Shown here: piece by piece, positions 5,426 to 29,345 of the stretch
How the letters are laid out: every line of letters begins with the position of its first letter
How positions within the stretch are numbered: position 1 is the first letter of the stretch
The notes under the pieces: generated by a model
The model's database searches: none
What the model was told of the DNA's origin: nothing
The model's input: the letters and a program-made list of their open reading frames with translations, nothing else
Position numbers and translations under genes: made by a program
From: a virus
DNA length: 43,084 bases
Reading direction: 5' to 3' (one strand)
IMG/VR virus record: IMGVR_UViG_3300005918_000040
Coordinates: 1-43,084 of that record

Positions 5426-6583
5426 CTAAATCCTTCGCTTTTCCGCAGCAGAGTTTATAGCACCTTCCAGCGTCAACGGCTGATCTGCCCCTGCCGCTGA
5501 TCCGGGAAGAACACGATTTCCCTTTCCAAGAGGTGCTTTGCTGTCATGGATAATCTCAGTTTTTTTCTCCGCATTGTATTTTAGTGTTTGATCTATCGCC
5601 CAAACAGTCTGATCCTGAACTGTAATTGGAACTTTATTTTCATCAACCATCGGAGCTTGAGCGATAAAGTGCATTAACACCGGATCGTTTTTTGTTAAAC
5701 CCGGAGTATCTGCTGCATTTAATCTGGATTCGAGATAGTCTGCTCTTGTTTGATCCACGGCCCATTTCACTTGAGCATCAAAATCAAGTGGATTCCCCTG
5801 AGAATCTGATACGGGCGCTTTTTGAGCATATGAAACATAAACTTCATCATCAGGATTTACACCTAAAGATGATGCAACGCTGTTCGCGTACTTCAATGCA
5901 TCACCGCTGGCGGGCTGATCATCGATCGTTGATGTGTCTTGTGATTGCGTTATCGGGCCTGCGGTTGTCGCCGGCTGTGAAGTTGGTATGTCACTTTCTT
6001 CTGGCGGCGCAGATCCGGGCTCTGGCACATACTTAAACCCTCTCAAATCAACGGCAACATCAGATTGCAAACTAGCTACATTCTTATGATAGTCATCGCT
6101 GTCTGGATCGAGATCTTCCATATCCTTGATTAGTTTTTCATTACGCTCTGTTGCGAATTGTTTAAAAGCATCATTCTCTTTTACCTCCTGTTCAGCCTCT
6201 AGCGCTTCACGTTTTTCTTTCGAACGCAAAGACTCTGTTTCTTGCTCAAGAGTGGCATACTTACTTTCCAGCTCTGTAACGTACCGACGCTGGTTAAGAT
6301 ACCCCTTCTCGGCGGCAGGATGGTTTTTAAACCTAAAGTGTCCCGGAACATCATCTAACGTACCGGCGGTTGCCCCGGTTACTATCGGTTCTGGTGCTGC
6401 TGTCGGGTCCACAACAACATCGGGAGCAGGCTGCCCTATTGGAGATGGTCCAACTACGTTTGCTCCATCTTCGGAGGGTAGTTCGAACATATCCAGGCCC
6501 TTCACGATCAACGCTTCAGAATCCAACGATTCTTGACCTGCTGTTGCCCCTTCGTCTTGAGGACTAAAATATTTTGGTGACAT
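5426..6583 (-). CDS. Capsid scaffolding protein
   Basis: 385 residues, strongly acidic and hydrophilic, Pro/Ala/Asp rich at the N-terminus. A predicted coiled coil covers about residues 95-150 (RRYVTELESKYATLEQETES, then LRSKEKREALEAEQEVKEND), and a basic C-terminal end (INSAAEKRRI) is typical of scaffolds that dock on the coat protein. It lies between portal-proximal genes and the major capsid gene, the canonical scaffold position. No protease motif is visible, so it probably exits intact or is degraded by others. Its leader has a hairpin shared with the 206-residue gene. Confidence 0.75.
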   Translation of the reverse strand: MSPKYFSPQDEGATAGQESLDSEALIVKGLDMFELPSEDGANVVGPSPIGQPAPDVVVDPTAAPEPIVTGATAGTLDDVPGHFRFKNHPAAEKGYLNQRRYVTELESKYATLEQETESLRSKEKREALEAEQEVKENDAFKQFATERNEKLIKDMEDLDPDSDDYHKNVASLQSDVAVDLRGFKYVPEPGSAPPEESDIPTSQPATTAGPITQSQDTSTIDDQPASGDALKYANSVASSLGVNPDDEVYVSYAQKAPVSDSQGNPLDFDAQVKWAVDQTRADYLESRLNAADTPGLTKNDPVLMHFIAQAPMVDENKVPITVQDQTVWAIDQTLKYNAEKKTEIIHDSKAPLGKGNRVLPGSAAGADQPLTLEGAINSAAEKRRI

Positions 6584-6619
6584 TTGCTTTTCCCTTTCGC
6601 GTTATCCCCGTTTACGGGG
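6584..6619 (-). promoter_or_regulatory. Hairpin leader, copy 1 (before the scaffold gene)
   Basis: On the minus strand a hairpin CCCCG-TAAA-CGGGG (6606-6619) is followed by GATAACGCGAAAGGGAAAA and the ATG. It shares its downstream block with the leader at 3405-3441. Scaffold is needed in large amounts, so a stabilising 5' hairpin would make sense; this is inference. Confidence 0.45.
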
Positions 6620-6771
6620 GGCTACTTTGGAGTATAATTTCGGAGCCTGCTGTTTTTTAGACGTTCTCCACCCGGAGAAACAAACCCCAACTCTAATCTT
6701 TTGGCCGAAAAACTCACAATTCATATTTTTTTATTTGATCTTTCATTTTACGATATATCTTTTATTTTTAA

Positions 6772-6840
6772 CCTGGAGCCTTTGGACTCCCGGATTCGCA
6801 GTCCGGTACCTTTTTTCGAAGTTGCCCATTAGACTCCAGG
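6772..6840 (-). ncRNA. tRNA-like hairpin element between the 107-residue and scaffold genes
   Basis: On the minus strand, 69 nt start with CCTGGAG and end with CTCCAGG (a 7-bp acceptor-like stem). Inside is an anticodon-like arm: CCGGA, loop CTGCGAA, TCCGG, which would place GCG as anticodon. The D-arm side has a TAATGGGCAAC stretch like a D-loop. The T-arm side is too short (about 11 nt) for a normal tRNA. The 5' arm overlaps the last codons and stop of the 107-residue gene. It is therefore a degenerate tRNA-like or regulatory structure, unlikely to be a working tRNA. Confidence 0.35.
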
Positions 6841-7152
6841 GGCCTTGCCGGGCTCAAAATATCTACTAGCCAATTCTTCGGCTGCTTTTTTCCCATCAAC
6901 TTCTGTTGCTCCAACCCTGTTAAGCATGTCATTAAAAGCCTTTGCCTCCGGATCGTTTTGTATTAATACATTTATCCGAGCCGTAAGACTCTTCTTAATC
7001 ATAGAAATTAAAATTGCCCCGGCCTCTGTTTTAGACAAAGACGACAGCTTGGCTTTTTGCTCTAACTTCGATTTTGCCGCGTTATCCCTTTCAGCATCAA
7101 CCGAAGCGATCGGCCTGTTTGTTTGAATATCTGTATGTGCTCCTTTATCCAT
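6829..7152 (-). CDS. Unknown helical protein of the virion operon
   Basis: 107 residues, mostly predicted helix with Lys/Glu/Ala-rich stretches (AERDNAAKSKLEQKAKLSSL, then MIKKSLTARINVLIQNDPEA). It ends in GKAPGV. There is no recognisable motif. Located between portal and scaffold, it might be an assembly factor. Its stop codon lies within the 5' arm of a tRNA-like hairpin (6772-6840), so its 3' end may be structured in the mRNA. Confidence 0.55.
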   Translation of the reverse strand: MDKGAHTDIQTNRPIASVDAERDNAAKSKLEQKAKLSSLSKTEAGAILISMIKKSLTARINVLIQNDPEAKAFNDMLNRVGATEVDGKKAAEELASRYFEPGKAPGV

Positions 7153-7161
7153 AATATACCC

Positions 7162-7344
7162 TTAATTGTCCTGTTCAGCCGCTGCTGCTCTTTCTGCGGC
7201 CCTTTTTTCCAGATCGGCAGTATACTCCCCCTCTAACTGTTCCAACATTCTTCGTCCTGCCGGACGGAGCCCCCATTTTCGCCGGGGATCATTTGGCGCA
7301 TAAGGCTTAATCTTTTTTGGTGCTGCTGGTTTTACTGCTGCCAT
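7162..7344 (-). CDS. Small basic protein downstream of the portal
   Basis: 60 residues starting 2 nt after the portal stop (GGAGGAAGATAAA precedes the ATG). The N-terminal half is Pro/Lys/Arg rich (PAAPKKIKPYAPNDPRRKWG); the second half is a single Ala/Glu/Arg helix. A DNA- or RNA-binding or assembly role is possible, but I do not recognise the family. Confidence 0.55.
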   Translation of the reverse strand: MAAVKPAAPKKIKPYAPNDPRRKWGLRPAGRRMLEQLEGEYTADLEKRAAERAAAAEQDN

Positions 7345-7345
7345 T

Positions 7346-9364
7346 TTATCTTCCTCCCGTATTGTCAGGTTTATTTGCTTCTGTTGCCATTTTCTTTATT
7401 TCAGCTGCAACCTTTTTAGCCTCGAGTAAAAATTCTTTTTCAGCGAGTACAAGCTCTTCTCTTTGAGTAGCTATACTCTCTAAGACTTTTTGAGTTTTAG
7501 CTTGGACAGCTTCAACATCAGCATCCTGTTTTGAAGCTTCCAATTGAGTAAACGTAGCTTTTATGTGCTCGCCTTTTTTCATCGCTTCATTTTCTGCCTG
7601 TCCGATTTGCTGAGCGGTTTCTTCATCCACGAATACACCTTCATCTTCCAGCTGTATTCTGGATTCGAGTGCTTTAAGGGTTTTATACGGATCAACATAT
7701 GGAGCAAAACGAGGGGTGCTCGCAAGCGGGATGACAACTTCTTTTAAGTGAGAAAGAGTTTCCTGCTCTCTCATCAATGCCTGCATGCCGGATACATGAA
7801 AACTTCCTGACGGTTCTGGAAGATTTGTAATCGTTTTTCCGGGCTCTTCGCTCCCGGGTATAATTCCTAGAGTTTTAAGGGCTTCAGGACCGAGAATTCT
7901 TTCATAATCACTAAAACCTGCGTATGTCTGCATAGCGTCTCTGGCAGCGACTAATGCCCATTTTGCGCCGGCCTCGATATTAGAGCCCATCAGGCTGAAC
8001 ACGCCTAAAGACTGGTTTAGATTCTGTGCGCTTTCTCTGAACGTCATATCCTGTCTATACCCTGGTAATCCCTGGACAGAATCATTAACAAATGATCCTC
8101 TTTGAAAATTCTGATCATAATACTGCAAATTAGATAAAATAGAGTTTGATACGTCTCTTCGATCAACAGTTCTTACAGCTGCGTTTCCATGAACAGATGC
8201 ATTAGCAAGATATTCCTTTCCGGGCCACATCTGAACATCTGTTGGATCTACAAGCTGATCAACAACGATTTCAGACGGTGGGTTTACAACCCATTTATAA
8301 TTATCTTCGTGGAGACACATAAGCTGATTCATAGCCAGCCATAAAGATTGGACGGACTTCAATAAGCCTCTACCTCCAAACGTTAAAAGATCCGGAAGAA
8401 CAGAAAAACTAATGCCGGGCCATCTTAAAGTAGAATACGGAGAGTTGGTGGGTTTTTCTATTACGCGATGACCGGCAACCGTATAAGTGCCTTTTTCCAG
8501 CAGCATCTCGCCGTTCGGGCTTAATACCGATCCCCAAAACTCACCGGTCAATACCATAGTCCTGAACTCTGATCGCTGAATAAGCTGGTCTTTTCTTATT
8601 GCGCATGCCTCTTTGGTCATAAGATCATCGTTTACAGATGAATCACCGGCTTCCGTGGCTTTCGCTCTTTCAACGTCAAAATATTTCCCACCTTTTTGGC
8701 CTGCTTGCAAAACGAAATAATCCATCCATTCTTCATGGATCCAAAACAAACCGGATTGAGGATCTCTTGAAAGAGCGTCCGGATCTCTATGGATTTTCCA
8801 TGGCTCGATTAAATCAAACCGCAGACCGACACCTGGAGTGTATTGAGGTATCATCTCCATAGAATCACCAATCGCAAGACCCATGGTAGTGGCGTCACCG
8901 AACCGAGTTACAAAATCAGCGTTCTGATCGTTAAGCTCAATCGTCATTGCATCCTGCCAGAACTCTGCAGCTCCTTTATTCAACTTATCAGTGATCGTTA
9001 AGAACTCAGGCGTAAACGCTTTTTTCACACTTGCCGCACCAAACTGCACAGCTGAAAAAGGCTTAGGGATTACAGTTTTAGACTGCCAGCTTTCTTTTTG
9101 ACTATAAAACTCAGGCTCATCCTCTTTATACATTTTATAAAGGTCGTCCTGCTCTTTTCTTATATCAGCATTCGCTTCAACAGACGTTTTTTTACAATCC
9201 ATATAATAATCGACAAAATGCTTTTCGTTCTCTCCAGCGTATGCATCTGCGGCTTCTTCACGCTCAGCTAGTTCTTTAGGATCGATAATTGTGGATCCAG
9301 CATGACTGGCCTTAATGATATCATCATTTAGTTCGTCAAAAGCTTTATTTATAGGTTCAGCCAT
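7346..9364 (-). CDS. Portal protein
   Basis: 672 residues, the size of podovirus portals. Typical features are the stem and wing region with MEMIPQYTPGVGLRFDLIEP, then WKIHRDPDALSRDPQSGLFW, followed by a long helix-rich clip and crown. The C-terminal 100 residues are a charged coiled coil (EAVQAKTQKVLESIATQREE, then LVLAEKEFLLEAKKVAAEIK), like the barrel of P22-type portals. It lies between large terminase and scaffold genes. It forms the dodecameric vertex that docks terminase and later the tail adaptor. The assignment rests on size, order and pattern. Confidence 0.8.
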   Translation of the reverse strand: MAEPINKAFDELNDDIIKASHAGSTIIDPKELAEREEAADAYAGENEKHFVDYYMDCKKTSVEANADIRKEQDDLYKMYKEDEPEFYSQKESWQSKTVIPKPFSAVQFGAASVKKAFTPEFLTITDKLNKGAAEFWQDAMTIELNDQNADFVTRFGDATTMGLAIGDSMEMIPQYTPGVGLRFDLIEPWKIHRDPDALSRDPQSGLFWIHEEWMDYFVLQAGQKGGKYFDVERAKATEAGDSSVNDDLMTKEACAIRKDQLIQRSEFRTMVLTGEFWGSVLSPNGEMLLEKGTYTVAGHRVIEKPTNSPYSTLRWPGISFSVLPDLLTFGGRGLLKSVQSLWLAMNQLMCLHEDNYKWVVNPPSEIVVDQLVDPTDVQMWPGKEYLANASVHGNAAVRTVDRRDVSNSILSNLQYYDQNFQRGSFVNDSVQGLPGYRQDMTFRESAQNLNQSLGVFSLMGSNIEAGAKWALVAARDAMQTYAGFSDYERILGPEALKTLGIIPGSEEPGKTITNLPEPSGSFHVSGMQALMREQETLSHLKEVVIPLASTPRFAPYVDPYKTLKALESRIQLEDEGVFVDEETAQQIGQAENEAMKKGEHIKATFTQLEASKQDADVEAVQAKTQKVLESIATQREELVLAEKEFLLEAKKVAAEIKKMATEANKPDNTGGR

Positions 9365-12542: not shown

Positions 12543-12830
12543 CCGTGGTCATTTTAAAAATGGGCACGATTCAAAAATGGGCACAAAATGGGCACAACTA
12601 TTTGCAATCAATCCAGGCCCCTGGCTGGCCGTGCCCCATTTGGACAGTTATTTTGCACTACTCTATAGCATTCTGTATATACCTATCTTTTTTTCTTTTT
12701 TAATTTCAAATCTAATAAGATTAGAAAAACTGGGCAAATAGGGCAACCCCTTGAAATCATTGGCCAGAGTGTGCCCATTTTTGGTAGTCAAAAATGACCA
12801 CGGATGGCTCTGTGCCCATTTTCGCGAACC
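12543..12830. other. Candidate replication origin with iterons
   Basis: ATGGGCAC occurs three times in direct orientation (12560, 12577, 12588) and as its complement GTGCCCAT at 12771 and 12812, plus a one-base variant GTGCCCCAT at 12631. The first and second groups are flanked by CCGTGGTCATTTT (12543-12555) and its exact complement AAAATGACCACGG (12791-12803). Between them is an AT-rich tract (about 12645-12725) with T-runs. The last iteron sits inside a GGATGG...CCATCC inverted repeat. Repeated short motifs, dyad symmetry and an AT-rich core are typical of an initiator-dependent origin; the same pattern could be an operator array. Confidence 0.5.
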
Positions 12831-12930: not shown

Positions 12931-12983
12931 GCGGGTAAAACCCGCTTGACAAAGATTGCTATCTGTGATAGCTAGGATATAAA
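12931..12983 (+). promoter_or_regulatory. Early promoter/operator module, copy 1
   Basis: A hairpin GCGGG-TAAAA-CCCGC (12931-12945) abuts TTGACA (12946-12951). Next comes a perfect palindromic operator GCTATC-TGT-GATAGC (12958-12972), then TATAAA at 12978-12983 and GATCAAGATAAA. A TAGCTA at 17-bp spacing could serve as -10, but TATAAA (26 bp from TTGACA) is better conserved between the two copies. A repressor or activator bound to the operator would therefore sit over the polymerase site. The second copy is at 15250-15287. Confidence 0.65.
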
Positions 12984-13016
12984 GATCAAGATAAACCTTA
13001 AACCGGAGGCGCAAAC

Positions 13017-15249: not shown

Positions 15250-15287
15250 TTGACATTGAGTGCTATCTGTGATAGCTTAGCTATAAA
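15250..15287 (+). promoter_or_regulatory. Early promoter/operator module, copy 2
   Basis: TTGACA (15250-15255), the same 15-bp operator GCTATCTGTGATAGC (15262-15276), and TATAAA (15282-15287), followed by GATCAAGATAAATC. It matches copy 1 at 12946-12983 almost base for base across about 55 bp, while the flanking DNA differs. It would start a second early transcript at the small zinc-finger gene. Confidence 0.65.
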
Positions 15288-15322
15288 GATCAAGATAAAT
15301 CTTAAAAAGGAGGTTAAAAAAA

Positions 15323-22879: not shown

Positions 22880-23046
22880 TGGGTAAAGAAAAAAACAAAG
22901 ATGTTCTGATCAGAGATTTTCCTGCGGATCTTCACAAAAAAATCAAACATTATAAAATCGATAACAACGGAATAAGCGTTAGCGATTGTATGATAAAACT
23001 CATGAAAAAGGGGCTTAAAGATGATAAAAAATCAAAATCATCCTAA
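22879..23046 (+). CDS. Ribbon-helix-helix-like DNA-binding protein
   Basis: 55 residues. VLIRDFPADLHKKIKHYKID followed by GISVSDCMIKLMKKGLK fits the Arc/MetJ-type ribbon-helix-helix pattern (beta-strand, then two helices with a G-I-S turn). The gene overlaps the integrase start by 26 nt, so it is likely a partner or regulator of the recombinase, for instance as a repressor or directionality factor. Confidence 0.6.
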   Translation: MGKEKNKDVLIRDFPADLHKKIKHYKIDNNGISVSDCMIKLMKKGLKDDKKSKSS

Positions 23047-23602
23047 GAAGGGATCAGCGATAAAGGTGCAGCCTATCACCCGTATGAAGGACATAGCGAC
23101 CCTTAAGCAGATATTAAGCCCAAGAGACCTATGCCTTTTTACTATTGGCATAAACACGGGCTTAAGGGCATCAGACCTTATCCGGATCAGATTAGATCAA
23201 GTTCAATATCTGGAGCCGATGGAAGAGCTTGAGCCAAAAGAGAAGAAAAATGCTAAATACAAACGAATCAATTTTAACAAAACGTGCGTTGAGGCTACGC
23301 AGGCATATCTCGCAACAAGAAAAGATGACTTCAAGTGGCTTTTCCCAAATCCGCAAGGAGAACATATCTCAGCGCCTTATGTAAACAGCCTGGTCAAAGG
23401 ATGGTGTAAAAGATTAAATTTAAAGGGCAATTACGGTAGCCATACGCTGAGGAAGACGTTTGGATACATGCAGAGAACAAAATACAATGCCAGTGTTGCG
23501 CTATTGGTTTTTATTTTTAATCACAGGTCCGAGAAACAAACCCTAGATTATTTATGCATCCAGCCAGAAGAGATCAAGGAAGTTTACAGCAACAACATAT
23601 AA
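23021..23602 (+). CDS. Compact tyrosine recombinase (integrase)
   Basis: 193 residues. Catalytic residues are visible: R49 in GLRASDL, a Lys near 81, H141 and R144 in GSHTLRKTFGY, H168 in FNHRSEK, and the nucleophile Y177 in TLDYLCI. The arm-binding N-terminal domain and most of the core-binding domain are missing, so it is close to a bare catalytic domain. It could integrate the phage or resolve multimers. A ribbon-helix-helix gene overlaps its start. No attachment site could be identified. Confidence 0.8.
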   Translation: MIKNQNHPKKGSAIKVQPITRMKDIATLKQILSPRDLCLFTIGINTGLRASDLIRIRLDQVQYLEPMEELEPKEKKNAKYKRINFNKTCVEATQAYLATRKDDFKWLFPNPQGEHISAPYVNSLVKGWCKRLNLKGNYGSHTLRKTFGYMQRTKYNASVALLVFIFNHRSEKQTLDYLCIQPEEIKEVYSNNI

Positions 23603-23639
23603 AAAAACCCCGGCCTGTGAGCATAACCACAGACCGGGG
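23601..23639 (-). terminator. Intrinsic terminator (minus strand)
   Basis: 12-bp stem with one C-A mismatch: CCCCGG-C-CTGTG / CACAG-A-CCGGGG, loop of 8 nt. On the minus strand it is followed by TTTTTTT, the standard form. On the plus strand no U-tract follows, though the hairpin may also slow transcription past the integrase gene. Confidence 0.8.
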
Positions 23640-23694
23640 GAAAATCGAAAAGGAGCCTTATCTACTTTGGACGATCCAAAGAGTATTGGGCCTT
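23601..23694 (-). ncRNA. Candidate small RNA B
   Basis: Promoter on the minus strand at 23727-23700 (TTGACA, 16-bp spacer, TAATAT). The transcript of about 93 nt has a perfect hairpin CTTTGGA-TCG-TCCAAAG (23665-23681) and a single-stranded linker with GGCTCCTTTTC. It ends with the strong T7 terminator at 23601-23639. No ribosome site with a usable ATG. The CUCCUUUU stretch could pair with Shine-Dalgarno regions. Confidence 0.6.
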
Positions 23695-23699
23695 TTTAT

Positions 23700-23727
23700 A
23701 TATTAAACAATTCTTCTTAATTGTCAA
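23700..23727 (-). promoter_or_regulatory. Promoter of small RNA B
   Basis: TTGACA at 23727-23722 (minus), TAATAT at 23705-23700, 16-bp spacing. It starts directly after the U-tract of small RNA A. It resembles the promoter at 23852-23824 in both boxes and spacer (TTAAGA..AATTG in both), so they look duplicated. Confidence 0.6.
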
Positions 23728-23728
23728 C

Positions 23729-23818
23729 TAAAAAATGCCCGATCGGACTTAGCAATCCTCCCTTAAAAAGATTCGTTGCTTAATCTCAAATCGGGCATTT
23801 AGCAAAGAAACGAAAACA
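23729..23818 (-). ncRNA. Candidate small RNA A
   Basis: Promoter at 23852-23824. The approximately 89-nt transcript is closed by a perfect 11-bp stem, AAATGCCCGAT (23800-23790) with ATCGGGCATTT (23743-23733), and ends in TTTTTT. Inside, TTA(A)GCAA pairs with TTGCTAA and exposes a loop with TTTTTAAGGGAGG. That loop copies the ribosome-binding leader of the early genes. No clear coding sequence. Confidence 0.6.
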
Positions 23819-23823
23819 CAAAT

Positions 23824-23852
23824 AATATAAATCAATTAATCTTAACTGTCAA
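23824..23852 (-). promoter_or_regulatory. Promoter of small RNA A
   Basis: TTGACA at 23852-23847 (minus), 17-bp spacer, TATATT at 23829-23824. It lies just downstream of the stop of the 62-residue gene (23860), so it reads away from any gene. Confidence 0.6.
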
Positions 23853-23859
23853 CAAAAAG

Positions 23860-24048
23860 TTAAGTCGCTATCACCATTTTTATCTCGCTGTCAGTAACTT
23901 CTCTGTAAGCAGTTTCAAACGTTTTCTTTGGACTCCAGGACACATATCCGTCCGGATACGTCACGCTATATCCAGGTTGGCCGAACTCGTTTTTACTGGG
24001 ATATGCGGTGATAACCTTTGCGCCGATATACAGTTTTTTCTCGCTCAT
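23860..24048 (-). CDS. Conserved phage protein with SVTYPDGYxSWSPKxxFExAYR motif
   Basis: 62 residues, ATG with AAAGGATAG. The sequence YIGAKVITAYPSKN...GYSVTYPDGYVSWSPKKTFE, then TAYREVT matches a small protein family seen often in phages of Gram-negative bacteria; no function is established. It is the last gene of the minus-strand operon before the small-RNA locus. Confidence 0.7.
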   Translation of the reverse strand: MSEKKLYIGAKVITAYPSKNEFGQPGYSVTYPDGYVSWSPKKTFETAYREVTDSEIKMVIAT

Positions 24049-24071: not shown

Positions 24072-26732
24072 TTAAACAGCCGAAGACGGTCCGCCGGCCA
24101 GGTTATCATCGATCTCGTCAGTAAGATCAATACCCGTAAACGCCCAGTATCGATTAGGACCTATCTTTCTTCTGGATTTATCCACGCCGTTAATCATTAC
24201 AACTTGCTCGTAAAATCGATGCTTACCCCATGGTTTATATTGAGCTGCTTTACACCAATTAGTGAATTCCATATGAAACTTCGCGCACGACACATTACAC
24301 TCTTCGTTGTCAGGCTCAACCACGCAGCGCTCTTCAACAAACTGAAGCACGTTATTAATATTCTTCATAAATCTTGCGTGATCTTTTTTAGCCTGATCAG
24401 ACATAACAAACCCTTTGTTTAATATCAGACGATTTACAGAATGAAGCATCCACATAAAAATACCGTCCAGTTCTTTTTCTCTAAGATAATCCCTTAAATC
24501 AACGTCTTTGCTCGGTGATTTTTCAAAATCCTGGTTAAACTCCAACACCAGCACACGGCGCTCAAAACCGGGAGTTCTGTCTGTAATACCGGGGGGCTCG
24601 TTCATACCGAATATAAACTTAGCTGTGTTATTAAACTCCACTCGAGAAGAATGTTTATGCTCACCAGCGATAATCTCGCCGGATATAGCAGCTTTTAAAA
24701 CGTCAGTAGCAACCTGCTTTTTAGAAGATTCTGTGCATAAATTAACGAGTTTGTGCTGCAACGCCGGGATAGAAAAACGCTCTGACAGCTGATCCAGGTT
24801 AACGCGGCATGTATTATGGATCCCAACGACCTGAGATAATGTATCTATCACAGTGGATTTACCGTTACCGCCAATACCGTAGCAAAACAGACATTTTTCG
24901 AACTTACACGTTGTCATAATACAATACGCCATAAAATCCTGTACTAACTGGCGCTTGCTTTCTCCAACACCGTCTGGTTCCGGGAAGATCTCTTGTAAAA
25001 AACGCTCCCACCGATTGCATTCTGCGTCCATATCGTAACTGACGTTTAGCTGTATCCTGGAGCCGTACTTATGATCGTGATCGATCAGTTCAAGTTTATC
25101 AGTGGTCATATCCACCATACCGTTTTTTACGTTTATAAGATCAGGCATGGCAGGCCAGTCTTTTTCTGATCTTCGGACTTTACCCTTAAATATCTTCTTA
25201 ACAGAATCAATATAATTACCTTTTATTAATTCTCCCATGGCGGTGATAAGCACTGACTCTACTTTTTCTTCTTCGAATCGATCCCAAATACCGTTCTCGT
25301 ATTTATAATACATGCCGTCAGTCCAGGCGATCGGATGCAAATATGCTGCTAAATAACTCGCAGCCCAGTCCTGGATCATCTCTTTTCTGCCGGACGCTGC
25401 ATTTACTTTAAAAAACGAATCAGGATCGATGACGTGAGGAGGCTTAACCAATGCAGAATCGTACACTTCCATCTGGTTTATAAAGCTTAACTGAGATAAA
25501 TCATCAGCGTATTCGCTTAATACAACCGCTGGCTTTGTCTTTTTCTTGGTTTTAGTGTCGGGCTTCCAGTTAGGATCGTAACCGGTCATAAACTCTGTGA
25601 GTTTTTCTGATCCGGATAGGAGTTGCTTTACGTCCTGCCATTTATATCCCTTACAAGAATCGTGAAAGCAGTTAAACGTGATTTTACCATCGTTATAAAC
25701 AAAAATCTCTGCATCTCTTTTATGGTTCTCGCCAAACGGGCACTTCTCAAGGCCGTAGCTCATGCCATGGCCTTTGTTTTCTTCTTTATATAAATCCCAT
25801 CCGTGATATTCTAAGTATTTTTTAACATCAAGTGATCCTAGAGAGTCTGACGGCATGCGAGTGGTTTTACCGACAGCAGGAACGTTACTTGCCGGTGCCG
25901 CGGGTCCGGCTTCAGCGGCCTTAGCGTCATCGTAGAATTTTACAAGGCTTTTGAGCTTTCTAAGATCCAATACCGGTACTTCATCTAACGATTTAACGGT
26001 GTTACTAAATAAATGAGACTGTCGGTGAGGACGATCTTCAGTGTGCTTGCCTTTTCTGGACATAGTGCCGTATAATTTACCGAGCTGCGCGATCTTTACA
26101 ACACTTGTGTCGATCTCTACATTAAATTTTTCAGCCGGAAACTTCATATTAATCGCGCAAAGAGCTTTGTGCAGTAATCCGTCTTTTTTGCCTATATCGT
26201 CTGACACATCAAGATCGTTCAACCGGAACCAGATATGATACCCGTTACCGCTCATACCGCCTATATGCCCTTCGAACTTAAACTCGTCTCTTAGCCAAGA
26301 CACAACCGCTTGCCCGGCCTTATGGCCATAATCAAGCTCTTTCTGGGTGGATGCTACACCAGAAACGTGCTCATCACCCTTAGGATCTATATCGATCATC
26401 AGCCAGCGAATACAACGAATATCGTTAGCGCTCGTTTGCTTAGATCGGTTGTGATCATAGATTTCTAATTCGTTTGGAGATCGTGACAGGCACGCTTTTT
26501 TGGGGGGATTTGCTGTAAACCAGATTGCTTCAGCTTCAAAACTATCAAGACTTTCAACAGCTTTAGCAAAATTTTGCTCGTTATCAAAATACCCGTATAT
26601 TATAGAATTTTTACGAGCGTATTCGTTTTTCCAGGCGGGATCTTTACCGACAATCCCTTTCGCTCTTACCTCTACAACTTCGCCTTCTTTAAAAAACAGC
26701 CGATAAACCCATCCGTAGTCTATTTCTCCCAT
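24072..26732 (-). CDS. Primase-helicase (PrimPol-like domain plus SF3 helicase)
   Basis: 886 residues. The N-terminal region has motifs of archaeo-eukaryotic-type primase-polymerases: MIDIDPKGD (about 112-120, metal-binding acids), SGNGYHIWF (about 161-169) and KIAQLGKLYGTMSRKG (about 214-229). A zinc cluster CPFGENH...CFHDSC (about 330-360) follows. The C-terminal half is a P4/D5-type superfamily 3 helicase: Walker A GIGGNGKST (about 617-625), then IFGMNEPPGITDRTPGFERR as motif C and arginine finger. This single protein could unwind and prime at the origin, probably the iterons at 12.5 kb. No separate DNA polymerase is seen, so host polymerase is probably used. Confidence 0.85.
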   Translation of the reverse strand: MGEIDYGWVYRLFFKEGEVVEVRAKGIVGKDPAWKNEYARKNSIIYGYFDNEQNFAKAVESLDSFEAEAIWFTANPPKKACLSRSPNELEIYDHNRSKQTSANDIRCIRWLMIDIDPKGDEHVSGVASTQKELDYGHKAGQAVVSWLRDEFKFEGHIGGMSGNGYHIWFRLNDLDVSDDIGKKDGLLHKALCAINMKFPAEKFNVEIDTSVVKIAQLGKLYGTMSRKGKHTEDRPHRQSHLFSNTVKSLDEVPVLDLRKLKSLVKFYDDAKAAEAGPAAPASNVPAVGKTTRMPSDSLGSLDVKKYLEYHGWDLYKEENKGHGMSYGLEKCPFGENHKRDAEIFVYNDGKITFNCFHDSCKGYKWQDVKQLLSGSEKLTEFMTGYDPNWKPDTKTKKKTKPAVVLSEYADDLSQLSFINQMEVYDSALVKPPHVIDPDSFFKVNAASGRKEMIQDWAASYLAAYLHPIAWTDGMYYKYENGIWDRFEEEKVESVLITAMGELIKGNYIDSVKKIFKGKVRRSEKDWPAMPDLINVKNGMVDMTTDKLELIDHDHKYGSRIQLNVSYDMDAECNRWERFLQEIFPEPDGVGESKRQLVQDFMAYCIMTTCKFEKCLFCYGIGGNGKSTVIDTLSQVVGIHNTCRVNLDQLSERFSIPALQHKLVNLCTESSKKQVATDVLKAAISGEIIAGEHKHSSRVEFNNTAKFIFGMNEPPGITDRTPGFERRVLVLEFNQDFEKSPSKDVDLRDYLREKELDGIFMWMLHSVNRLILNKGFVMSDQAKKDHARFMKNINNVLQFVEERCVVEPDNEECNVSCAKFHMEFTNWCKAAQYKPWGKHRFYEQVVMINGVDKSRRKIGPNRYWAFTGIDLTDEIDDNLAGGPSSAV

Positions 26733-27015: not shown

Positions 27016-27292
27016 CTTTTTTAGGACCGTCAACAGATTCGTTATATTGTATTCCTCCACACAAATCGCACTTAATCACATCAACCTGAACCAGCTGTTC
27101 CTTGCCTATCGGGCTTTGAATCGCTGATACGATCTTATACCGGGTAAGATGTACGAAAAACACCCCACCGCATTCAGTGCATTTTAAATCATTGCAATGC
27201 GGCAGATCGACTGTCAGTTTTACCTGCTGTGGAGCCCCAGGCGGCACAGGACCGCCTTTACTTCCGCTACCCATTGGTACTGGTTTCTTCAT
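26987..27292 (-). CDS. Zinc-ribbon protein
   Basis: 101 residues. The N-terminus is Gly/Pro rich (GSGSKGGPVPPGAPQQ). CTEC (about 37-40) and CDLCGGI (about 74-80) form a zinc ribbon enclosing beta-strands (GVFFVHLTRYKIVSAIQS). It overlaps the start of the excisionase-like gene, implying coupling. Possibly a nucleic-acid-binding helper for replication; unproven. Confidence 0.6.
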   Translation of the reverse strand: MKKPVPMGSGSKGGPVPPGAPQQVKLTVDLPHCNDLKCTECGGVFFVHLTRYKIVSAIQSPIGKEQLVQVDVIKCDLCGGIQYNESVDGPKKDEKNTNKKG

Positions 27293-28512
27293 TTTTTCTC
27301 TCCTTTTTTACGATCGCGTTTTAAGCGTTTAAAGTGAAATTTTAAGAATTCAGGTGTATCGCCCGCTTTCTTATCGTGGGCTTTATATATACGTCTTGGC
27401 ATATTAAGGTCATGGAACAAAAAACGCAAGGCATTATCTCTCATAATGTCAGACCAAAAGCCGGCCGGACATTTATAAATAAACGGCTTTACCCACTGTT
27501 CGAGTTTCCATGTGTGCCTCATCATAGGCCAATCGGATCCGTACATGATTTTTTTTAAGGCTTTTTCGCCAGAAGCCCATATATTTTTAAAATACGTGTC
27601 TACCAGTTTTTTATCATGCGCCTGATCGTTATACGCAAGATCCGTGTAAACGTTATCGAATTTTCTGCATAAATACAGTATTTTTTCTGCCCAAATGTTT
27701 TTAGAATACATTATCAAGCCAGGCTCTACATCCTGCAGATCCTGACCGAGATGCGCGAGATTTAAGCGAAGAGTTGGGTACAGATTTAATACATGCTCCC
27801 AGTTTACCGGGTCCGTATATCCGAGCCGGGCTTCTTCATCGCCCATGGTTTTATCAGAATACGCACCGCCCCTGGAGCAATGGATTGTAATAGGGATATT
27901 CTTAGAATCAGCGTATTCGTAAAACGTCCATAAATCATCGATCTGTTTTAAGGTGAGCTCCTTACCGGCATTACTGGAAGGCAAGGGGTTCCAGCCAAGC
28001 GCGGGATACATTTTAACGCCTAAAAACCCTTTATTTTCTAAGGCGTCTTTTACGATTTCAAGCGCATCGTCTCTTCTAGGATCGTAATGAACAAACGGCA
28101 TTAAAACCCCGTAATGACGATTAGCTACGTCAGACATGGACGAGATCTGTGTTTTCCATGGTATCTCAGGCTTGTCTCCAAATGACGACTGCTCCAGATC
28201 CATCATATTTAAAATCATTAGCTGAGTGTTAGCCAGCTTCATTTCTTTACGAAGATCAACAGCCTGGCAATAAACCGGTTTTTCAATAAGGTTAAACAGA
28301 TCTACAATATATCTGTATTTCTTACCGGGCCAGAGCCATGATATAATGCCAGCAGCCCATCTTGTGCGTTTATTTCTTAAAAACAACTCCCGGACAGGGG
28401 CCCTGGTCTTGATGTACTCGTCAGGGATATCACCCCAGCAAAACTCATGCCCGTGAACATCCACAAAACCCAGTTTTTCATTGTCCATAATGCTTTTTAT
28501 TAAATCACTCAT
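27289..28512 (-). CDS. Amidohydrolase-superfamily metal-dependent hydrolase
   Basis: 407 residues. The signature of the amidohydrolase-2 (TIM barrel) family is complete: HxH in VDVHGHEF (H20, H22), a central GVKMYPALGWNP, the His of TIHCSRGG (about 209), the His of LNLAHLGQ (about 253) and the Asp of MYGSDWPM (about 325). These metal ligands imply an active hydrolase or decarboxylase; the substrate is unknown. The gene ends with a Lys/Arg-rich tail. It sits in a tight cluster with two SAM methyltransferases (start at 28512 overlaps the upstream stop). Such an enzyme is rare in phages; it may be host-derived. Confidence 0.8.
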   Translation of the reverse strand: MSDLIKSIMDNEKLGFVDVHGHEFCWGDIPDEYIKTRAPVRELFLRNKRTRWAAGIISWLWPGKKYRYIVDLFNLIEKPVYCQAVDLRKEMKLANTQLMILNMMDLEQSSFGDKPEIPWKTQISSMSDVANRHYGVLMPFVHYDPRRDDALEIVKDALENKGFLGVKMYPALGWNPLPSSNAGKELTLKQIDDLWTFYEYADSKNIPITIHCSRGGAYSDKTMGDEEARLGYTDPVNWEHVLNLYPTLRLNLAHLGQDLQDVEPGLIMYSKNIWAEKILYLCRKFDNVYTDLAYNDQAHDKKLVDTYFKNIWASGEKALKKIMYGSDWPMMRHTWKLEQWVKPFIYKCPAGFWSDIMRDNALRFLFHDLNMPRRIYKAHDKKAGDTPEFLKFHFKRLKRDRKKGEKK

Positions 28513-29345
28513 ATCAATCCTCCCTCATATTTAAAAATCATCATATTCTCATATGGATAGATGTTTTGGAGCTTTTCTAAAGGTATTTGTTTTTCAATAT
28601 CTTTTTTAATCTTACCAACTGTTTTTTCATCATAGACATATCCTAAATCCTCAAATTCATCTATCCAGTATTGTTTTGGCTGCTCGTTAACATGACCGTC
28701 TCCGCGCTGGCCTTTTCTAGCAGCAGAAAACAAAACCGTGCTGCTTAACGATATTATGTTTTGCAAGAAAACGTCGGTTCTATCCTCTGGTATATGCTCC
28801 GCAACTTCAAAGCTAATAGCGAGATCAAAAATGTCGTGGGCATGCAAAAAAGGCATGGACACGTCAGTCAAAACGATATTGTCTTTTACGTTCGACCGAT
28901 CAATAGCCACCATGCTGCCTTCAAACCCCTGTACATCCACACCAATATTCTTAAATATTGATAGATACAGCCCCAGGCCGCAGCCTATATCAACTACCGA
29001 TGCTGGCTGGATATGATGCATAACAGCAGCGGTTAGCGCAGGCACAAAATCATCATATTTCTTAATAATACGATCATAAAAATCCTCATCATACAGGTCT
29101 AACTCGACCTCACCTTTTTCAGCGGTGATTTCTTTATATAAAGTCTGAGCCTTGTCAGTTGCATCGGATATCAGCTTACTGATAATGTTAAAATCATCTT
29201 TTTCAAGAGACGCTTTAATCATCTTCCAGTACCTTAGCTGCAAAGGAATGGTAAGATTGCATACGATATCGTCTGCCGATAATATGTTTTTTTTTACGGT
29301 TTGATCGTTTCTTCTTAATGTTTTATTCATAGCCTCACTATCCAC
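28509..29345 (-). CDS. SAM-dependent methyltransferase
   Basis: 278 residues. Motif I VVDIGCGLGLYL (about 117-128), a GFEGS acidic-loop equivalent and the ISFEVAEHIPED motif (about 180-190) define a class I small-molecule or glycan methyltransferase fold. The N-terminal 80 residues are an extra helical domain. The catalytic partner motif of DNA methyltransferases is absent, so it probably acts on a small molecule, lipid or sugar. It overlaps the neighbouring genes on both sides (operon). Confidence 0.8.
   Translation of the reverse strand: MDSEAMNKTLRRNDQTVKKNILSADDIVCNLTIPLQLRYWKMIKASLEKDDFNIISKLISDATDKAQTLYKEITAEKGEVELDLYDEDFYDRIIKKYDDFVPALTAAVMHHIQPASVVDIGCGLGLYLSIFKNIGVDVQGFEGSMVAIDRSNVKDNIVLTDVSMPFLHAHDIFDLAISFEVAEHIPEDRTDVFLQNIISLSSTVLFSAARKGQRGDGHVNEQPKQYWIDEFEDLGYVYDEKTVGKIKKDIEKQIPLEKLQNIYPYENMMIFKYEGGLI

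Follow-up and report, generated by a model that had tools for sequence, protein, structure and literature searches.

The window analysed here, the whole 43,084-base IMG/VR virus record of an uncultured phage, carries two gene arms that run head-on into one another. Plus- and minus-strand genes converge only once in its gene map, at a gap of 257 bp (23603-23859) between the stop codon of an integrase gene (23602) and that of a 62-amino-acid open reading frame (23860); the cumulative GC skew turns at ~13 and ~23.6 kb, the same places as gene direction. The first-pass annotation had described a 258-bp gap between convergent gene blocks; the convergence stands, and the length is corrected to the measured 257 bp. 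The features of the locus, with energies and spans as predicted, are:

~13.0-23.6 kb, plus strand: plus-strand gene arm, with a tyrosine recombinase as its terminal gene
23021..23602, plus strand: tyrosine recombinase/integrase (PF00589, 8e-16; phrog_216, 6e-37)
23602..23697, minus strand: predicted RNA B, ~92-96 nt; a hairpin at the 5' end, joined by a short pyrimidine-rich linker to the terminator hairpin
23608..23639, minus strand: hairpin B2 plus U7, -24.5 kcal/mol, tail TTTTTTTA; U-tract directly next to the stop codon of the integrase gene
23649..23696, plus strand: hairpin B1 in its plus-strand reading, AAAAGG...CCTTTTT plus T-tract, -16.6 kcal/mol, tail TTTTATAT
23700..23727, minus strand: putative promoter B, TTGACA-16-TAATAT, 10/12 consensus matches
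23732..23817, minus strand: predicted RNA A, ~85 nt; a single long hairpin preceded by an unpaired, U-rich 5' leader
23733..23800, minus strand: hairpin A plus U6, -26.9 kcal/mol, tail TTTTTTAG, perfect 11-bp arms
23824..23852, minus strand: putative promoter A, TTGACA-17-TATATT, 11/12 consensus matches
23860..24048, minus strand: 62-aa ORF, the last minus-arm gene (phrog_9467, 1.9e-12; no function assigned by that family)
24072..26732, minus strand: D5-type primase/helicase (D5_N, DUF5906; PF08706, PF19263; phrog_864, 1.7e-69), near the end of the minus arm
Meeting the plus arm at the gap, minus strand: minus-strand arm, holding head, portal, terminase and replication genes

Upstream of the primase, the minus arm also holds an amidohydrolase (27289-28512) and a methyltransferase (28509-29345), which are unusual cargo in a phage.

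Both putative promoters combine a perfect TTGACA with a near-consensus -10 box, and they rank second and joint third among the 37 promoter-like sites in the 19 kb scanned. The -35 box of promoter A starts 8 bases past the stop codon of the 62-aa ORF, and promoter B lies 2 bases past the U-tract of unit A. Over a 34-nt segment the two promoters are 82% identical, with an alignment score of 47 versus 27 +/- 3.7 in shuffles, whereas the interiors of the two RNAs align at 27 versus 32 by chance and thus have no likeness above chance. The earlier suggestion that the units were duplicated therefore holds for the promoters and fails for the RNA bodies, and the duplication appears to be limited to the promoter. 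The spacers have TTAAGA..AATTG in common, and mismatch-free copies of the spacer word ACARTTAAGANNAATTG occur in the window only at promoters A and B, so that common control of the two is possible. This word differs from the palindrome GCTATCTGTGATAGC of two plus-arm promoters. The latter regions (12946-12990 and 15250-15295) are near-identical: in each, a TTGACA precedes the perfect palindrome GCTATCTGTGATAGC and TATAAAGATCAAGATAAA. The palindrome is a likely operator common to both, and probably acts as the plus arm's main switch.

With its start site placed from the position of the -10 box, RNA A has a fold z of -3.7 for 86 nt and of -5.9 for the 71-nt hairpin (range -3.0 to -5.9 by span). 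Hairpin A is predicted to be its terminator, and also the first terminator reached by the minus-strand replication operon. RNA B, whose start is placed within 23693-23699, has a fold z of -5.4 (range -4.7 to -5.4); it runs toward the integrase gene and extends as far as that gene's stop codon, with hairpin B2 as its predicted terminator. Read on the plus strand, B1 is probably the terminator of the integrase arm, and the complement of B1 is the source of the CUCCUUUU in RNA B.

Chance co-occurrence of such elements was assessed with a strict unit, defined as a promoter with 10/12 matches or more, combined with a terminator of -20 kcal/mol or lower. The real gap has two strict units, both on the minus strand, and there are no others anywhere in the window. 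Among 2000 dinucleotide shuffles of the gap one contained one or more units and none contained two, statistics that are somewhat flattering because the thresholds were picked after the gap was seen; whole-window shuffles gave a mean of 0.025 strict units. With looser cut-offs (9/12 and -11 kcal/mol) two units were still found in 0/2000 shuffles. The promoter-hairpin-U-tract architecture is far beyond chance, and these counts bear out the two minus-strand units seen in the first-pass annotation, each with promoter, hairpin and U-tract. The sequence statistics likewise favor reading them as two small-RNA units in tandem, each transcribed from one of a pair of related promoters.

Related phages were found via the head protein (56-70%), the recombinase (~52%) and the primase (~38-41% for the best ones). 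Conservation of both hairpins had been named as a check on the proposal; no sequence conservation was found, and the relatives that carry the region reach at most ~40% in the neighboring primase. Searches of phage, plasmid and IMG/VR sequences yielded no sequence relatives of RNA A or B, and the whole-gap DNA gave only chance-level matches of 30-45 nt against phages and plasmids. A DNA search of the records of near-identical contigs (L019-L022, found by portal and head protein) turned up no trace of the gap. An exact-seed IMG/VR search returned 0 matches for the loop of RNA A; for the apical hairpin of RNA B, CTTTGGATCGTCCAAAG, it returned 11 contigs, which were set aside as unrelated and probably coding, with flanks that bear no likeness to RNA B. 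No Rfam family matched above its gathering threshold in the window, and no tRNA was found; anti-hemB (the best sub-threshold match, 20.8 versus 49.5 bits) and isrC were dismissed as chance. A small toxic peptide encoded in A or B was also rejected, inspection by eye having revealed no start codon suitably spaced from a Shine-Dalgarno sequence.

One relative, G014, has an element that is alike in position and shape, though not in sequence. Its integrase-side plus genes likewise converge on a minus-strand primase side, and there (L067 2216-2124, minus strand) TTGACA-19-AATAAT lies ahead of an RNA of 93 nt that has two strong hairpins, a terminator and a fold z of -5.2; a seed search with this RNA found only G014 itself. 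As a positional analogue it lends weak support to the small-RNA reading, since it is the only instance and its promoter spacing of 19 is poor. In five primase-bearing relatives (G005, G004, G017, G021 and G011) no such unit was found downstream of the primase. A TTGACA-18-TAAAAT with a hairpin downstream of the primase in a Desulfosarcina MAG (L122) was rejected as an analogue; since it runs into a 543-aa gene and its U-tract is weak, an ordinary leader is the likelier reading. A separate observation concerns G018 (L095 6415-6612), in which a unit on the minus strand precedes a 375-aa ORF and has TTGACA-17-TATGTT, an internal repeat in two copies, CAAAGGTTACTGATA...GTGATTCAAGTCC, and a hairpin of -25 kcal/mol with a T run; it has no Rfam or tRNA match.

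A role at ribosome sites had been proposed for the pair: RNA A was said to display, in a loop, the Shine-Dalgarno leader of the early genes, TTAAGGGAGG, and RNA B to carry a CUCCUUUU able to pair with such leaders, so that the RNAs might titrate or block ribosome sites across the phage. The early-gene leaders are instead CTTAAGGAGG or CTTAAAGGAGG, i.e., CTTAA(A)GGAGG, and TTAAGGGAGG occurs once in the window, inside RNA A. The GGGAGG of RNA A is not exposed; it lies mostly in a stem, with an unpaired probability of 0.13-0.32 over most of the motif. For the RNA B linker with CUCCUUUU, the mean duplex energy with 60 phage ribosome sites is -12.0 kcal/mol versus -12.2 +/- 0.9 for shuffled linkers, and 57 of 100 shuffles were as good or better, so that its pairing with the leaders is not above random. 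With the motif of A mostly paired and the pairing of B at chance level, phage-wide titration or blocking is not supported. It is very unlikely that the RNAs are directed at Shine-Dalgarno sequences, B masking ribosome sites via CUCCUUUU and A titrating either the motif of B or ribosomes. The CUCCUUUU motif does resemble the anti-Shine-Dalgarno tail of 16S rRNA, and its CCUUUU can be unpaired if RNA B starts at 23693-23695, but starts at 23697 or 23699 leave the motif largely paired with the 5' AAAAGG. Mutual pairing of A and B is negligible, with a gain of only -1.7 kcal/mol. The motif also requires no special function, since on the plus strand the same bases make AAAAGG...CCUUUUU and a U-tract, a plausible terminator of the integrase arm.

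The main rival takes the gap as a terminator block only, in which the hairpins stop both arms and the promoter boxes are weak, silent or remnants, with no functional small RNA. Terminators are expected at a convergence, and A and B2 would end minus-strand transcripts and B1 plus-strand ones; strong two-way AAAAGG...CCTTTT hairpin terminators are also found in the relatives G004, G005, G008 and G009. What this account leaves over is a duplicated, correctly spaced pair of TTGACA boxes ~85-92 bases before terminators, which a block does not need and which chance is very unlikely to supply, and it is considered possible but doubtful. The direction of RNA B, into the integrase gene as far as its stop codon, could instead suggest that the integrase end is regulated from the minus strand, either through transcriptional interference or through antisense read-through, on the model of lambda OOP over cII. 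RNA B overlaps integrase by a few bases at most, short of an OOP-type overlap with the opposing gene; an antisense effect would require read-through of B2, which is among the strongest terminators of the window and stops B before any real overlap, and this explanation is highly improbable. Still more remote is a function in replication, in which transcription at the gap primes or activates an origin beside the primase gene. The gap does adjoin the primase operon, and three related contigs (L107, L108 and L109, ~6500-7400) have, directly downstream of the primase, a non-coding, AT-rich stretch of ~0.9 kb in which words of the GTTCA/TGTTC type recur; these stretches are possible origins of related phages. 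An iteron-like cluster, however, sits 11 kb from the gap, at 12557-12822 in the divergent non-coding region, where GTGCCCATTTT occurs five times without mismatch (three copies on one strand, two on the opposite one) inside an imperfect long inverted repeat; the gap has no such repeats. The count of GTGCCCATTTT at one mismatch was reached in 0/100 shuffles, and the cluster is a probable replication origin of the iteron type.

On balance, the reading given somewhat better than even credence, and the most likely, is that the gap encodes two independently transcribed, terminator-capped small non-coding RNAs inside a terminator block that parts the genome arms. The sequence of each predicted unit offers what is looked for in a phage intergenic small RNA: its own promoter at proper spacing and an intrinsic terminator that would give a discrete 3' end. 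The two genes would lie head to tail at the sole meeting point of the gene arms, each with its own sigma-70-type promoter and with a common spacer that would permit joint control, and each transcript would end at a strong intrinsic terminator after about 85-95 bases. Both promoters are presumed to fire, and RNAs A and B to accumulate as stable structured RNAs. Phage small RNAs usually act by base pairing, and these may pair with phage or host transcripts through their unpaired parts, which in A are the U-rich 5' leader and the apical loop and in B the pyrimidine linker; no signal pointing to a target emerged. Hairpin A would also halt the minus-arm transcript and B1, on the plus strand, the plus-arm transcript; by stopping transcripts from both arms, the hairpins of the block would keep the arms apart. 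A broader proposal, that phages of this group have a co-regulated, fast-evolving pair of small RNAs at the arm convergence, whose promoter is retained while the RNA body is exchanged, and that the site is a hotspot where regulatory RNAs arise between terminators, is speculative and on present evidence unlikely. If expressed, the units would bring two small RNAs new to an uncultured phage group, and would be a compact case of a duplicated promoter driving two unrelated RNA bodies; they would also suggest a way to keep converging genome arms separate, with terminators that serve as RNA genes as well. Their practical value will stay limited until a host or RNA data become available.

The feature is credible but ordinary, phage intergenic small RNAs being a kind already known. 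The OOP RNA of lambda is ~77 nt long. It is antisense to cII (PMC12197685, PMC5869508). Like OOP, the predicted RNAs are short phage RNAs with their own promoters and intrinsic terminators, placed beside replication genes and opposing the other arm; unlike OOP, there are two of them, their overlap with a gene is a few bases at most, and they have no sequence relation to it. Lambda PreS, encoded between ea10 and ral (PMC12197685), is a stand-alone phage small RNA between genes, as is predicted here; PreS is bound by Hfq and has dnaN as its reported target, whereas the gap RNAs are predictions from sequence. The Racr RNA anti-CRISPRs are solitary repeat units (PMC10651486) and resemble the gap RNAs as short non-coding phage RNAs in stand-alone units, but Racrs mimic CRISPR repeats and RNAs A and B have no CRISPR-like repeat evident by eye. 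The closing comparison is with two-way intrinsic terminators between convergent genes, which the B1 hairpin matches in its A-tract and T-tract arms and its place between converging operons; what sets this gap apart from them is that a duplicated pair of promoters, each with a perfect -35 box, lies between the hairpins.
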